Of a DNA stretch of 64,000 nt, positions 24,823 to 38,480 are shown piece by piece. How positions within the stretch are numbered: position 1 is the first letter of the stretch; every line of letters begins with the position of its first letter. The DNA is from an uncultured Acholeplasmatales bacterium. Lineage in GTDB: Bacteria; Bacillota_I; Bacilli_A; Acholeplasmatales; Anaeroplasmataceae. Under the pieces are notes generated by a model. That model did no database searches and was not told the DNA's origin. It was given only the letters and a program-made list of their open reading frames with translations. Where the stretch lies: positions 1-64,000 of the forward strand of contig CALUQZ010000007.1 of NCBI GenBank assembly GCA_944323055.1, given 5' to 3'. The translations under genes and the position numbers were made by a program.

Positions 24823-26964
24823 CTATTCTACAATTGTTATATCATAGTAAAACTGCGACAAATAATCAATATTATCAATTCTAAACTCTAAAAAAATGCT
24901 TAATTCAAAATTAGTAGGTACCACATTTTTAATTAAAAAATTTAAAGAATTACCAATTTGCTCAAATTCAATTTGTTCATTATTAATATATACATATTTA
25001 ATAGAAGCATTACTAGCTTCAGTATTAGTAAGACTTAAAAGGACTTTAAATCCCTCTTCTGTCATAAAATAAGTTATATCTGGGGCTTTAATTTCAGGAG
25101 CTGTTTTAAAAGAATTATTATAATTATATTCTTGATAACCTTGCCCATCATAATTATTATAAGAATAATTAATTACATAAAAATATTGGGTATTTGGAGT
25201 CAAATCTTCAAAATATAAAGTGTAATAATTATATTCAACACCTATTTCATCTGATTGATAAACTTTAATTAAAGTATCATTAGGACCATATAATTCGATA
25301 CTATTTATAATAGCAGAATTGTTACTTTGTTTAAAATAACACCTTAACCGACAACTAGTTGGAAAAATTTCATCAATATTAGATACAAGTTGGAAAGTAG
25401 CTGATATTGTATCTACTTCATATTTATAAACTTCTCTTGTAAGATCAGATGAGGAATTATCTTGATAATAAACTACATAAAATATATTATACGTTTTATT
25501 AGGTTCTAAGTTTTTAAAAGTAAAATCATCATCTTCTAAATAAGTTGCATAAGAGCCTGAATCTTCATAAAAAATATCAATTTCTAAAATGGTATTATCA
25601 GGATCATAAATGTCGTAATAACAATATATTTCATTACTACCAGTTCTAAATATTGGGCTTACAATAGGTTTAGTTTTAGCTAAAGTAGATACATATTTGT
25701 TTTCACTATAATTCTTTATTTCTGTCTCATCAAGCTTATAATCATAACTCAATCTTATTTCATATATAGTATCTGATAATAAACTATTAAATGTACCTTC
25801 AACATCTACTTTAGTTTCAATTAAAGTTCCTTTAGCATCATATAAACTAACATTAAAATTAGAAACAATACTATCAACATCTAATATATTTACTTGATAA
25901 CTAATACTTGTCTTATTAACATCAACATTAAAATATAATAAACTAGGTTCTTCATAACTAGGTGTTATAAGTACATATTTTATTTCAACTAATTCATTAG
26001 TACTAGAAGTCACATAACTTAAAATAAAAGTATATTCTGTATTAGGTACTAAATTAGAAACAACACTAGTGTTTGTAACATCTTGTCCATTACAACTTAC
26101 CATTAAATTAGTAACAACATTATCTTCTTTAATTTCATAAGTTATATAAGTAGGATATGTGACAAAGTTTACTAAACTAACTTCTGAATAAGCTCTAATT
26201 TCTTCTTCATACATCAAATAAGAACTTACACCATTGCCATCAAAGAAATCAGCATAACAAATGACAGCAAACTGATAAACTTTACCTACTTCTAACTCAT
26301 CAAAATAAATGGTTGACCTCAATTCATTAGTATCTAGATAATCTACTATTTCGCCATCTAGAAATAAAATAAAGCGGTAAGTAGCATTTAAATATAATTG
26401 GTCATCAATTAAATAATCAACTATTAAAATACCTGAATCTGTACTTAACTCTTTAAAGACAATTTGAGGTCTTGCAGTATCTGTAACACCTAACTTAATA
26501 ACAGGCGTAGTATTATCTAAATCAACATCTAAAATACTTGATTCATAAACATATTTAATCCCTGTTATTCTATAAGTATAAGGACCAGGCGTACTAGGTG
26601 CCTGCATCTTTATGATGATTTCTTCACTAGTTGAATTATCTTGGAATTGATAACTTTGATATTTTATATTATCAATACTAATTGACATTATTTCATAAGA
26701 TTCATCATTTTCTAATAAAACATGTAAATAAAATTCCTCATTAGGATTTGCATAATGGTCTACTTGTTCATCACTTACTTCAACATTGCTAGGTGGTTCT
26801 AAAGTTTGACTCATATTTTTAGCTATATCATCTTCACTGCTATCACTTAAATAAACATCTTTATAAGTAGGGGGATTAGAAACGTCTATTAAGTTATCAT
26901 TACTATTATCACTACAACTTACTAAGAGTAATATTAATCCTAATATAAAAACTAATTTTCTAAT
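24823..26964 (-). CDS. Large Fn3-like lipoprotein, apparent ATT start
   Basis: An ATG at 26814 gives 663 residues without a signal peptide. The same frame continues 50 codons upstream and encodes RKLVFILGLILLLVSC, a textbook lipoprotein signal with lipobox LVSC. An in-frame TGA blocks further extension, and there is no ATG, GTG or TTG. The only start candidate is ATT at 26964-26962, seven bases after GGAGG. With it the protein is 713 residues, lipidated at Cys17. The exported part repeats motifs such as NLVPNTEYTFILSYV, NLEPNKTYNIFYVVYY and DLTPNTQYFYVINYSY, like fibronectin type III strands. It overlaps the preceding gene by 13 bases. Function is unknown; the substrate or ligand may be outside the cell. 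Confidence 0.85.
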   Translation of the reverse strand: MRKLVFILGLILLLVSCSDNSNDNLIDVSNPPTYKDVYLSDSSEDDIAKNMSQTLEPPSNVEVSDEQVDHYANPNEEFYLHVLLENDESYEIMSISIDNIKYQSYQFQDNSTSEEIIIKMQAPSTPGPYTYRITGIKYVYESSILDVDLDNTTPVIKLGVTDTARPQIVFKELSTDSGILIVDYLIDDQLYLNATYRFILFLDGEIVDYLDTNELRSTIYFDELEVGKVYQFAVICYADFFDGNGVSSYLMYEEEIRAYSEVSLVNFVTYPTYITYEIKEDNVVTNLMVSCNGQDVTNTSVVSNLVPNTEYTFILSYVTSSTNELVEIKYVLITPSYEEPSLLYFNVDVNKTSISYQVNILDVDSIVSNFNVSLYDAKGTLIETKVDVEGTFNSLLSDTIYEIRLSYDYKLDETEIKNYSENKYVSTLAKTKPIVSPIFRTGSNEIYCYYDIYDPDNTILEIDIFYEDSGSYATYLEDDDFTFKNLEPNKTYNIFYVVYYQDNSSSDLTREVYKYEVDTISATFQLVSNIDEIFPTSCRLRCYFKQSNNSAIINSIELYGPNDTLIKVYQSDEIGVEYNYYTLYFEDLTPNTQYFYVINYSYNNYDGQGYQEYNYNNSFKTAPEIKAPDITYFMTEEGFKVLLSLTNTEASNASIKYVYINNEQIEFEQIGNSLNFLIKNVVPTNFELSIFLEFRIDNIDYLSQFYYDITIVE

Positions 26965-28208
26965 AGTAAAACCTCCTCATAATAATTATCTAATAATTGA
27001 TATCTAACTTTAATTTCTTCAATATTTTCGATATCTTTTAACATACAAACTACATCTAAACTATCATCATCGCTATAATTAAATACTTTGTCACTATTAA
27101 CTATAATTTCTGTAACTTTAACCTCTTCTGCTTTCTTAAAACTCAATACATAACCATTTGATAATTTTGTTAAATTACAATCATAAAATACCCTATTAAT
27201 TGTATTAGTAATTAAATTATATTGATATGTTTTACCATTATATTCATATTCAAAAATTAAATGATAGTTTGTATTAGGTGATAAATTAGTAATATGTTTA
27301 TCTACTATTTGACCATTTAAATAAACTACTATATCATAGTCAGTTATGATATCAATATAATCAATACCACTTATAATGCTATAGGTAAATGGTAAATCAG
27401 TTGTGATATCTTCTCTTAATAATTCTATTTTTCTTAAACCTAATCCATCTAATAAATCAAAATTAGTAGTGATAGCTAAAGTATAGGTAGTACCAGGTTC
27501 TAAATTAGCGATATTAATACTATTACTGCCTACTGTTTGATAGATAAGTGTATCACCATTATACAATTGAATCATAATATCTAAGGAACTATCATATGCT
27601 AAACTAAAACTAATTGTTGTTGTAGTTTTAACAATATTATAAATATCAATTTGCGGTATGTCATATTTTATAGCTATTTCTAATTCTCTATCACCTACAA
27701 ATTCCGATTCTTTAATATTAGTTCCATCAATATATTTAATACTATCTACATAAATAGAAGTTACCCCTCCCGTTTCTGGTAAGGTATATTTTAAATAAAT
27801 TGTATGATTATTAGAACCGTCTAAAAACTCATATGAATTATATTTATAATCATTAATAGTAACTGATAATATTTCAAATTGTTCCTGATTATCTAAATTA
27901 ATCGTTATAATAATGTTGTCATTTGCAGCAAAATAATAATCATAAGAGTAAGTAAAATCCACATTGCTTGTATTTATAGTCGTCTTTTCTTTACTTAAAC
28001 TCATGTTTAAGAAAGAAACTGTAGCTTTACTAATAAAAGTAATTGATACAACTATAATTAAAGCTATAAGAGAAAGTGCTGATATAACATAAGCAATAAT
28101 ATATGGTAAACGTCGATTTTTAAAAGATAAGTCTTTTTTGATGTTTTCTAGTTCTTCTTTGCTTGTTAAACTAAATTTTAAACTATTTTTTAAATCTTTA
28201 CGTTTCAC
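26952..28208 (-). CDS. Membrane-anchored Fn3-like protein, possible anti-sigma factor
   Basis: This 418-residue protein has a short charged cytoplasmic part (1-34), one membrane helix (about 35-60) and a long extracytoplasmic region. That region carries Fn3-like motifs such as NLEPGTTYTLAITT and NLSPNTNYHLIFEY. The start is GTG 28208, eight bases after a strong GGAGGGGG, only three bases past the sigma factor stop. A transmembrane protein encoded directly after an ECF sigma factor is commonly its anti-sigma factor, here with an external sensing domain in the manner of RsgI. It lacks the zinc anti-sigma HxxxCxxC motif, so the anti-sigma role is an inference from position and topology. Confidence 0.85.
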   Translation of the reverse strand: MKRKDLKNSLKFSLTSKEELENIKKDLSFKNRRLPYIIAYVISALSLIALIIVVSITFISKATVSFLNMSLSKEKTTINTSNVDFTYSYDYYFAANDNIIITINLDNQEQFEILSVTINDYKYNSYEFLDGSNNHTIYLKYTLPETGGVTSIYVDSIKYIDGTNIKESEFVGDRELEIAIKYDIPQIDIYNIVKTTTTISFSLAYDSSLDIMIQLYNGDTLIYQTVGSNSINIANLEPGTTYTLAITTNFDLLDGLGLRKIELLREDITTDLPFTYSIISGIDYIDIITDYDIVVYLNGQIVDKHITNLSPNTNYHLIFEYEYNGKTYQYNLITNTINRVFYDCNLTKLSNGYVLSFKKAEEVKVTEIIVNSDKVFNYSDDDSLDVVCMLKDIENIEEIKVRYQLLDNYYEEVLLLEN

Positions 28209-28211
28209 TTT

Positions 28212-28721
28212 TTATGCCCCCTCCCTCATGATTTTTTTAACTTTGTTTAAACCAATTTTATATATATCATGACAACGTGTTTTACTTTTGTTTAAAACTT
28301 TAGAGATTTCATTGAAATTAAATGAAAAAGCAAAATGTAAAATGAACACATCAAATTCTTCTTTAGTTAAAATTTTAGCTATATTAAGCCAAATATCATT
28401 GTTTAGTGTTTCGATAATTGAACTGTCTAAATACCCTTTTTCTGACAAATATTTAGTTTCATTATTTCTACTTCTAAGTAACATATAAGCTTCATTTTTA
28501 GCTATTTGAACTAAATAATATTTTAAACTACCACCTTTAAAATTATCAATATTTTGATAAAACTTAGTAAATGTAATTTGACAGATATCATTTACATCTT
28601 CTATATCATGTAAGATATCATAAGCTACATATTTTACTAATGCTGCATATTTATAATATATTTTATCAAAGGCCTTCTCGTCTTTTCGTTTGAGTCTTTC
28701 TATTAATATCTTATCTTCCAT
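28212..28721 (-). CDS. ECF-type RNA polymerase sigma factor
   Basis: The 169-residue protein has sigma region 2 (residues ~10-80: AFDKIYYKYAALVKYVAY, DICQITFTKFYQNIDNF) and region 4 (about 110-165: LTKEEFDVFILHFAFSFNF followed by the HTH FNEISKVLNKSKTRCHDIYK). No region 1.1 or 3 is present, as in ECF factors. Its AAGGAG RBS and ATG overlap the end of the upstream lipoprotein gene by 11 bases. It is placed among three genes for exported Fn3-like proteins, so it probably controls envelope genes, perhaps this operon itself. Confidence 0.92.
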   Translation of the reverse strand: MEDKILIERLKRKDEKAFDKIYYKYAALVKYVAYDILHDIEDVNDICQITFTKFYQNIDNFKGGSLKYYLVQIAKNEAYMLLRSRNNETKYLSEKGYLDSSIIETLNNDIWLNIAKILTKEEFDVFILHFAFSFNFNEISKVLNKSKTRCHDIYKIGLNKVKKIMREGA

Positions 28722-30378
28722 ATAGTGACTCCTTCGTATAAACTATTAGTGAATCTTGTAGTTCAGCAATATTATTATAAGCATAATATGTATATATAAT
28801 TCTAATTTCATATGCTGTATTAGGTTTTAAATTAGTAAAGGTATCATTAAAACTATTTGAAGTAGTTATTAATTCCCCTAAGGAGAATAAATATACATTA
28901 AAATCTACAATCTTTGAACAGTTTGATTGATCAATGATATCATAAGTAATAGAATCTTTAGTACTATTTGTAGATAAGATTAATTTAGGCTTTGTATAAG
29001 ATATATACATGTATTCGGTTTTAGTTTGTTGATATTTTTTACCATATTCATCAGTTTCATAAGTTATTTCTATTTTATAATTGCCTTCTCCACAAGTATT
29101 AATTACTAAATCTGTTCCCCTATATATTAAATTATCATCATAATATAGATTTATATTAGTTATAATAAAGGCATTATCAAGCCAACCAAAATATATTAAG
29201 CCCTTGTTTTGATCAAGTGTTAGATTATAAACCAAATAATTTTCATATCTATCGCCTGTTGTAAAAGTTAATTCTCTTGACATCTTCTTTTCGGTCATAG
29301 AAATAGTATCAAAATAAGTTAAATTTAATACTGCTTTATAGGTTGAATTAGAATTGTATTTACTAAATTCTAAAGAAGTGGTATCACTACTAGCAACTAA
29401 GATATCATTTTCATCATAAAGTAATATTTCATATTTTTGTCTATCATAGACATCTAGATTACTAAAACTAATATTATAAACATCAGTGACGCTATTAAAA
29501 TCACAGGCAACTTCATAATTTGGAACTTTAGTTTCTAAAAAATTCAAGCTAAATTCATGCGTAAATAATTTACCATTATAATAATATCTTAGAACTCCAG
29601 TATAATCTAAAGTTAAACCTACTGGTTTTTCTATTGTTAATTTATTATCAACAAGTTCATATGTTTTACCATCCATTATGAAACTATCTAATGTTACTCC
29701 ACTATTATAAGTAAAAGTTAAAATGTCATAACCAACTTCATAATTAACTAAAATATTAACTGGAGGATAAAAATATAAATCCTTTGTATACATTAAGTAT
29801 TGTTGATTTAAATCAGCATATATTTTTATATTAAAAAGGCCGCTTTGTATATTATCATAATAATAATTATAATCGGTTATATTGCCTTCAAATAAATAAT
29901 CATTATTATTTAAAATTGACATATAAATAGGAAAATCTAAGTCTTTATAACAATTTAGGTCTATATTTATACTATGAGCATCAGTTGTTAATAGCGGATT
30001 AATTGTTAAAATAGCAAATGGATCGATTACTTTGATAGTTTTATTAAAAGCTACATTGTAATAAATATCATTAATTATAATATTTGATATTGTCAAATTA
30101 TAAAAATCTTTTGTACGAACTAATAAACTAATTTGATTATTCATATTGTTATAATAATTATCATTAACTATTAAACCATCTATTTTATAGTTAGAATTAA
30201 CAGCTACGTTAATGCTGGTACCGGCTAAAATAACATTTGACTCTTCATTATAATAATCACCAGTTAAAACAAATTCGCAAGAAAAATCAGCAATTGGCTT
30301 ATTATATGCTATATCTGTGGTATCATTGCAACTAGTCAAAGTAAATAAAATAAAAAATAAAAGAATGATATACTTCAC
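28711..30378 (-). CDS. Fn3-like repeat lipoprotein
   Basis: The best start is GTG 30378, giving a 555-residue protein that begins KYIILLFFILFTLTSC, a lipoprotein signal with Cys17. A longer frame from ATG 30399 adds seven residues, has no RBS and spoils the signal. Exported domains contain repeated beta-strand patterns ending in motifs such as NLKPNTAYEIRIIYTYYAY, similar to the neighbouring proteins. It is the first gene of the four-gene envelope module, about 45 bases downstream of a candidate promoter. The ligand is unknown. Confidence 0.85.
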   Translation of the reverse strand: MKYIILLFFILFTLTSCNDTTDIAYNKPIADFSCEFVLTGDYYNEESNVILAGTSINVAVNSNYKIDGLIVNDNYYNNMNNQISLLVRTKDFYNLTISNIIINDIYYNVAFNKTIKVIDPFAILTINPLLTTDAHSINIDLNCYKDLDFPIYMSILNNNDYLFEGNITDYNYYYDNIQSGLFNIKIYADLNQQYLMYTKDLYFYPPVNILVNYEVGYDILTFTYNSGVTLDSFIMDGKTYELVDNKLTIEKPVGLTLDYTGVLRYYYNGKLFTHEFSLNFLETKVPNYEVACDFNSVTDVYNISFSNLDVYDRQKYEILLYDENDILVASSDTTSLEFSKYNSNSTYKAVLNLTYFDTISMTEKKMSRELTFTTGDRYENYLVYNLTLDQNKGLIYFGWLDNAFIITNINLYYDDNLIYRGTDLVINTCGEGNYKIEITYETDEYGKKYQQTKTEYMYISYTKPKLILSTNSTKDSITYDIIDQSNCSKIVDFNVYLFSLGELITTSNSFNDTFTNLKPNTAYEIRIIYTYYAYNNIAELQDSLIVYTKESLYGR

Positions 30379-30429
30379 AGTTAACACTTCCCCTCGCATA
30401 ATAATAAATCAATCATAAATGCTGTCTAT

Positions 30430-37083: not shown

Positions 37084-37154
37084 ATTTATCTTGTTTTTTA
37101 TCACATTCACGGTAATTTTTATGCATAATTTCACTAGACTTAACTAATTTATAT

Positions 37155-38480
37155 TCCATTTAGTGGTAAAACGGTTGGCCATATCATAGATGGTGTTTAT
37201 GTTCCTAAAACTAAAAAGAGAATTAATACTCGTGATGTTTATTTGTTACGGTATGGTAATATTTGTTTGTTCGATAATGTTGGACATAGTTTATACCAAA
37301 CCTTGATTAAAGTTTATGATGCTAAAGAGGCTAAAAATATCTACACTGTAGCTTTACTAAGAACAGCTTTTCCAAACATCAAAGACTATCAAATAAAAGA
37401 CACGTATGAAAAATCTTAGGCAAGTATCTTATACCCTAATGCCGCTGTTAGTAAAAATTCTATTTCTTCTTTACTTATTAATTTAGGAAAGAATTATGAT
37501 TTAATACATAAATTTATTGAAGAAAGAATCAATGAAATGGTAATCGAATCAACTAAAATTTTAATTGATGGAATGTTAAAGAATGATAATTCAAAAATTG
37601 ATTCTTTTGCTGGTTTTTCCTATAAAGGTAGAATTAAAGGAACTAAAGATATATATATTATTTGCGCTTTAGATGTAGAAAAAAGAGAACCAATTTGTAT
37701 TAAGCTATTTAAAGGTAATTTACCTGATTTTAGTAATATTTATGAGTTTTTTGATGAATTCAAGTTACCAAATGGTCTAGCTATAGGCGATAAAGCTTTC
37801 CCTTTTGAAAAATTAAAGAATAAAGAATTTAAAGATAAAAAAATAAGCTTTATTCACCCGATTAAAAGATCAAGCAAAAAGCCTATTGAACTAAGCATGT
37901 ATGATAAAATGAGTGTAATAAAAACAGTAGATAAGAATCTTTTAGCTAGTAAAGATAGAGATGATGAAACTGGTTATTACTACTATTTATTTAAGGATTT
38001 AGATAAAGCAAGTTTAGAAGAAAAAGATTATCTTAAAAAGAAAGACTTTGACATTAAGAAATACAACAATCTTAAAGTTAAATTCGGAACCATTTGTTTT
38101 GTTTCTAATGCAGACTTAGATTTAATAGATGTTTTTAATTATTACAAATTAAGATGGGAAATAGAAATAGTCTTTTAAGATGGGAAATAGAAATAGTCTT
38201 TAAAATGTACAAAGACATTTTGTCCTTAAATACTACAAGGGAGAATGATAACTATAGCACAATAGGAAGTGAGTTTATTAACTTCTTATCAACAATAATG
38301 ACTTGTAGAGTAAAGAATAAAATAGAGAAAAAAGGGTTATTCAAAAAACATACGTACAATGACATTATAGATAGAATGACTGATATTATTAAATATACAA
38401 CAGATACTACTAAAGCTAATTAGAAGCTTTGCAATATATCTAAAGAAGACAGTGAATTAGCTATGGCTTTAGGTGTATAG
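37155..38480 (+). pseudogene. Broken DDE transposase (IS4/IS1634-like)
   Basis: Joined frames give a transposase-like protein: SGKTVGHIIDGVYVPKTKK, LLRYGNICLFDN, then ILIDGMLKNDNSKIDSFAGF, IICALDVEKREPICIKLFKGN, LAIGDKAFPFEK and the YKLRWEIEIVFK motif. These are the DDE-catalytic surroundings of IS4-type enzymes. The gene is dead in at least three ways: an in-frame TAG at 37417-37419, a 26-bp tandem duplication at 38149-38200 that shifts the frame, and a TAG at 38421-38423. The N-terminus is missing. No terminal inverted repeats were recognised. The exact IS family is uncertain. Confidence 0.8.
38149..38200 (+). repeat. 26-bp tandem duplication inside the transposase
   Basis: Two adjacent identical 26-base units (38149-38174 and 38175-38200), each beginning TTAAGATGGGAAATAGAAAT. 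26 is not a multiple of three, so the copy duplicates the LRWEIEIVF segment in another frame and cuts the protein. Confidence 0.9.

Follow-up and report, generated by a model that had tools for sequence, protein, structure and literature searches.

Translation initiation at AUU or AUA in genes other than infC has been described in Staphylococcus aureus, in which cvfC1 (AUU), ccpN and citZ (both AUA) start behind strong Shine-Dalgarno (SD) sequences. According to excerpts of that report, these AUU and AUA starts gave approximately 10% of the expression obtained with AUG in poor medium, and the AUA of citZ was confined to one S. aureus strain lineage (PMC13009471). In Streptomyces, the GTC start of sigR is repressed by IF3, and replacement of this codon with canonical ones upsets the system (excerpts of PMC5472188). 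An AUU start is also present in E. coli pcnB (cited in PMC13009471 and PMC9410913), and infC of B. subtilis starts at ATT (excerpt of PMC6097659). A preliminary description of the locus considered here had named infC and pcnB as the main genes known to have ATT starts, a view that is somewhat outdated now that cvfC1, ccpN, citZ and the GTC-started sigR have been documented, as far as excerpts of these reports indicate (PMC13009471, PMC5472188). Our literature search found nothing joining a noncanonical start codon with Acholeplasma. The class of phenomenon is already known, and the gene described below would add one member to it. This gene lies in a stretch of 64,000 nucleotides of DNA from an uncultured Acholeplasmatales bacterium (the window), and the ATT at positions 26964-26962, which stands at the head of its reading frame, is probably a real base that serves as the weak translation start of a large lipoprotein.

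The start site and its homologs

The features of the start site, in coordinates of the window, were the following.

24823..26964, minus strand: lipoprotein frame of 713 codons, with a signal helix and lipobox Cys17 followed by successive Fn3/Ig-like beta domains
26812..26814, minus strand: codon 51 of the frame and its first canonical ATG, which homologs do not conserve
26914..26964, minus strand: lipoprotein signal peptide to the lipobox cysteine (codon 17), with Cys17 invariant in six aligned proteins
26962..26964, minus strand: ATT at which the lipoprotein gene apparently starts, the homologous codon being ATG, TTG or GTG in eight homologous loci
26972..26976, minus strand: GGAGG Shine-Dalgarno sequence, 7 nt ahead of ATT, with motif and spacing shared by the closest relative (L002)
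26977..26979, minus strand: in-frame TGA stop upstream of ATT, TGA being a stop in this genome

The minus strand read across the start is TGA-GGA-GGT-TTT-ACT-ATT(26964-26962)-AGA-AAA-TTA-GTT-TTT-ATA-TTA-GGA, and the frame led by ATT begins RKLVFILGLILLLVSC in translation and stays open for 713 codons until it reaches TAG at 24823. The preliminary description had placed ATT seven bases after GGAGG and had reported no ATG, GTG or TTG in the lipoprotein frame between the TGA at 26979-26977 and the ATG at 26814, and both statements were confirmed. The TGA that it had located "right before" the start was indeed in frame, with the adjacency being loose, as 12 nt lie between TGA and ATT. Its claim that the frame ahead of ATG 26814 encodes a lipoprotein signal was also borne out, since the charged n-region, hydrophobic stretch and lipobox cysteine expected of a bacterial lipoprotein were all found in RKLVFILGLILLLVSC. 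The gap of 7 nt between GGAGG and ATT was the commonest spacing among the GGAGG-led genes of the genome (41 of 180). The mRNA around ATT was less structured than its shuffled counterparts, 199 of 200 shuffles folding at least as stably, and an unstructured start region of this kind was absent in the two homologs that were folded (z of +0.62 and -2.50).

Matches to the lipoprotein, with identities spanning 30-52%, occurred in four of the seven other genomes of the genus, and three of the genus's eight genomes were without any match. The start site was read in eight homologous loci (L002, L003, L004, L005, L008, L009, L010 and L013), among which L010 is a paralog within the same genome. All eight begin at the position homologous to ATT, with a charged and hydrophobic signal followed by a lipobox cysteine, and the codon at this position was ATG in six loci, TTG in one, GTG in one and ATT in none. 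The closest relative (L002, 52% identity) has TTG placed 7 nt after GGAGG. An alignment of the lipoprotein with five homologs revealed an invariant lipobox cysteine, with no conservation of the methionine encoded by ATG 26814. Alignment of homologous loci at this codon had been named in the preliminary description as a way to check its reading, and in the eight loci the homologs all carried the signal and none began at the downstream ATG. Because all homologs start at the homologous codon with a signal peptide, the lipoprotein would start at ATT or hardly at all, and these alignments give good support to a beginning at or very near ATT instead of at ATG 26814. The canonical codons found at this site in the homologs mark ATT as a lineage-specific change and not as a conserved control signal. 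A conserved, infC-like AUU regulation under IF3 control was also considered, and it was rejected on the same ortholog codon counts.

A second assembly of the species was sought and was absent from the genus set of eight genomes, which holds one genome per species. The search of genome contigs by protein returned nothing, that by alignment returned six loci, all from other species, and a pattern scan of viral contigs for the locus gave 0 matches.

Operon context and the lipoprotein product

Three genes stand ahead of the lipoprotein gene, which closes a cluster of four running in the order lipoprotein, ECF sigma factor, one-TM protein and lipoprotein. The other members were as follows.

26952..28208, minus strand: single-TM protein whose ectodomain is Fn3-like, its position making it a candidate anti-sigma factor, the 3' end of its gene overlapping the lipoprotein frame by 13 nt
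28212..28721, minus strand: ECF-type sigma factor gene (Pfam Sigma70_r2, 1e-12; NCBIfam sigma70-ECF, 5.3e-17)
28711..30399, minus strand: first lipoprotein gene of the four-gene cluster

The four-gene order, as judged from sequence and gene order, was repeated in four other species of the genus (L128, L129, L130 and L131), in which the last two genes overlap by 4, 26, 26 and 29 nt, respectively, when the read starts of the homologs are used. The placement of an ECF sigma gene beside a single-TM protein gene was conserved across species. No Pfam or NCBIfam hit to an anti-sigma domain was obtained for the single-TM protein, which is a candidate anti-sigma factor by virtue of its position and gene order. 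The ectodomain of this protein is similar to a portion of the lipoprotein (28% over residues 54-336).

The predicted structure of the lipoprotein comprises an N-terminal helix followed by all-beta domains (mean pLDDT, 77.7; pTM, 0.36). Compared with the PDB, the model resembles strings of Fn3 and Ig domains, with the whole-model matches all at a query TM of ≤0.20 among the 50 matches listed. Within codons 1-50 and also beyond them, codon position 3 differed most often from the closest relative and position 2 least often, a profile such as would be expected under purifying selection. Codons 1-20 were poorly conserved in the same comparison (5 of 20 identical), as is usual for signal peptides.

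Related modules were observed elsewhere. A shortened lipoprotein copy of 337 codons with a GTG start (L132, 4001-5014) lies beside the remnants of a decayed upstream gene (L132/L009), which suggests that the operon decays in some lineages. The genome under study carries a paralogous module at C4:7085-13416 (L010, L015), in which the terminal part of a sigma-like gene is accompanied by a single-TM protein and by a lipoprotein that is longer, with an open frame of 1,465 codons and an ATG start. Among the relatives with a complete operon, one of four has a non-ATG start compared with 54 of 840 genes genome-wide, numbers too few to claim selection for weak starts in this family.

Noncanonical starts in the genome and the order

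Our survey of start codons covered 1,144,278 of the 1,621,716 bases (71%) of the genome, which is a draft assembly of 48 contigs, and included 846 coding-like ORFs. The starts inferred genome-wide were ATG (786), TTG (28) and GTG (26; n = 840). Within the surveyed 71%, an SD-placed ATT, ATA, ATC or CTG without an earlier canonical start was found in 10 ORFs, two of which combined a coding-like lead with a credible protein, namely the lipoprotein gene (ATT) and a HAD phosphatase gene (ATA). In 11 of the 846 coding-like ORFs, including a transposase remnant at 37420, a long lead of coding-like sequence preceded the first canonical start, and the lipoprotein and HAD phosphatase genes were the only two of these 11 with an SD-placed codon of this type. 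Of 46 lipobox-like ORFs, two were without a canonical start: the lipoprotein gene and one apparent false positive, whose sequence looks like a dinucleotide-binding GxGxxG motif. The ATT start signal at the lipoprotein gene exceeds chance. An alternative genetic code, in which TGA would specify tryptophan, was ruled out by the termination of 58 of 483 long ORFs at TGA, and TGG is used throughout. Even with TGA read as tryptophan, no ATG, GTG or TTG appears upstream as far as the next TAA. An exact match to the 3' end of 16S rRNA, sought for the anti-SD sequence, was absent from the assembly.

The HAD phosphatase gene merits separate description. It is present in this genome (C15:612-1304, minus strand) and in four other species (L086-L090), with an ATA start in five of five copies, and the block around it, up to 3.7 kb long, shares approximately 98-99% DNA identity across the five species, compared with 30-52% for the lipoprotein homologs. 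The G-run forming its SD differs among the copies (GGGGGAGG, GGGGGGGG, GGGGGGGGG and GGGGAGGG). These observations could reflect a recent transfer, contamination shared by the assemblies, or a G tract whose varying length tunes expression. Positions 37144-38423 of the window (plus strand) hold what looks like a decayed insertion element, a transposase-like frame that is interrupted by an in-frame TAG and has a partly duplicated end behind it.

The infC gene of this genome (G000:C17) has ATT placed 8 nt after GGAGG. A match to infC was found in 36 other genomes, and a total of 31 infC loci were read, this one and those of 30 of these genomes, of which one locus was cut by a contig end; all 30 readable loci have ATT (23), ATA (5) or ATC (2) at the SD-placed start, and L115 and L125 also yielded an extra candidate codon. 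The infC start codon, with a strong SD ahead of it, differs between ATT, ATA and ATC within one order (loci L098-L127). On the assumption that these infC starts function as in B. subtilis, the loci indicate that AUU, AUA and AUC starts are in use in the order, and infC lends support to the view that an AUU start can function in this lineage.

A probable weak AUU start, its rivals and its relatives

If ATT serves as the start, the strong SD (GGAGG, 7 nt), the open mRNA and the ribosomes ending translation of the overlapping upstream gene would bring initiator tRNA to AUU, resulting in low but non-zero synthesis, perhaps with an efficiency of approximately 10% of AUG, of a product that keeps an intact signal peptide. 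In this lineage, ATT would have taken over from a canonical ATG or TTG. The intact frame, the well-placed SD and the apparently unstructured initiation region favour continued translation. IF3 discriminates against AUU, and the lipoprotein gene should therefore be IF3-sensitive, like infC. The likely effect would be synthesis of the lipoprotein at a low level compared with that of the upstream membrane protein, ATT possibly acting as a weak natural start that holds the lipoprotein scarce, and the weak start could equally be drift. A more ambitious proposal, in which a lineage-specific change from a canonical start to AUU serves as a gain control in an ECF sigma operon, rendering the last gene scarce and IF3-sensitive, shifting the ratio of the lipoprotein to the putative sigma-holding membrane protein and linking envelope signalling to the status of IF3 or the ribosome, strikes us as distinctly improbable. 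Since the relatives keep canonical starts, any such start-codon control would be new to this lineage.

ATT differs from ATG by a single base, so that one base change, whether it arose in the cell or during assembly, accounts for the whole anomaly. A wrong base, arising from consensus error or strain mixture in the metagenome assembly and concealing a canonical codon, is an unlikely explanation that nonetheless carries appreciable weight: the draft genome is divided into 48 contigs, one base explains the absence of a start as well as the extended end of the gene upstream, and all eight homologous loci have canonical starts. With ATG in place of ATT, the gene would have a canonical start together with an ATGA overlap of 4 nt, comparable to the TTGA overlap in the closest relative, which is the pattern expected of a one-base miscall or a recent mutation. 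However, SD-led start losses were rare in the assembly (two in 71% of the genome), the other case (ATA in the HAD phosphatase gene) recurs in the assemblies of five species, and fewer than 0.1 errors would be expected in approximately 4,500 start-codon bases under an assumed rate near 1e-5 per base, whereas three non-infC AUU/AUA starts have been reported in S. aureus (excerpts of PMC13009471). The scarcity of other start losses in the assembly and the S. aureus precedent lead us to prefer a real base. A real ATT might still be a start-loss mutation leaving the lipoprotein negligible or absent, the first step toward a pseudogene. This fits the lineage specificity of ATT, the degenerate copy in a related species (L132/L009; truncated, GTG-started and next to a decayed upstream gene) and the three of eight genus genomes without a match, but it is improbable given a frame otherwise intact over 713 codons, a good SD and spacing, a complete operon and the finding that AUU behind a strong SD still gives some expression in the bacteria in which this has been measured (excerpts of PMC13009471).

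The remaining readings place initiation elsewhere. ATG 26814, as the first canonical start, would be the choice of an automatic gene caller and would produce a protein devoid of a signal peptide, yet a signal peptide and lipobox cysteine are found in every aligned homolog, the methionine is not conserved, and no SD-like motif was seen by eye just ahead of this codon, which makes such a start very hard to believe. Ribosomal frameshifting from the upstream gene, for which the overlap of the two frames by 13 nt might offer an opportunity, would yield a fusion protein in which the signal peptide is buried; the homologs have their own canonical starts (overlaps of 4, 26, 26 and 29 nt), so that a fusion is not needed there, and we regard this outcome as extremely unlikely.

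The start codons that gene callers commonly allow are limited to ATG, GTG and TTG, and genes such as this one would consequently lose their signal peptides in annotation and be mis-sorted as cytoplasmic. The weak AUU start, if real, would be another non-infC AUU start, located within a sigma-factor operon, and would present an orthologous start codon seen differing between species (ATG, TTG and ATT), which would be useful for the question of selection versus drift on weak starts.

Collectively, the lipoprotein gene shares features with several known systems. Its ATT resembles the GGAGG-led ATT of infC in the same genome, with a spacing of 7 nt compared with 8 nt in infC. The AUU, AUA or AUC start of infC is conserved across the order, in contrast to the canonical starts of the lipoprotein homologs, and infC is self-regulated in E. 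coli, whereas no feedback loop is evident for the lipoprotein gene. In E. coli pcnB, AUU also limits the translation of a gene other than infC, according to the reports citing it; this is a different gene in a different phylum and was experimentally shown. The S. aureus genes cvfC1, citZ and ccpN, as described in excerpts, are closer in that they belong to a low-GC Gram-positive relative, have AUU or AUA after a strong SD and are not infC, and the citZ start is specific to a strain lineage, as the lipoprotein ATT is to its own lineage. They differ in that their starts were demonstrated by ribosome profiling and reporters, in that the starts of cvfC1 and ccpN are conserved across species, unlike the ATT, and in that none of the three is a lipoprotein gene. 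Streptomyces sigR, in the excerpted account, likewise has a noncanonical start within a sigma/anti-sigma operon, where it sets protein ratios (PMC5472188); the weak codon of sigR is on the sigma factor itself, whereas here it would be on a downstream lipoprotein with a putative role in sigma control.
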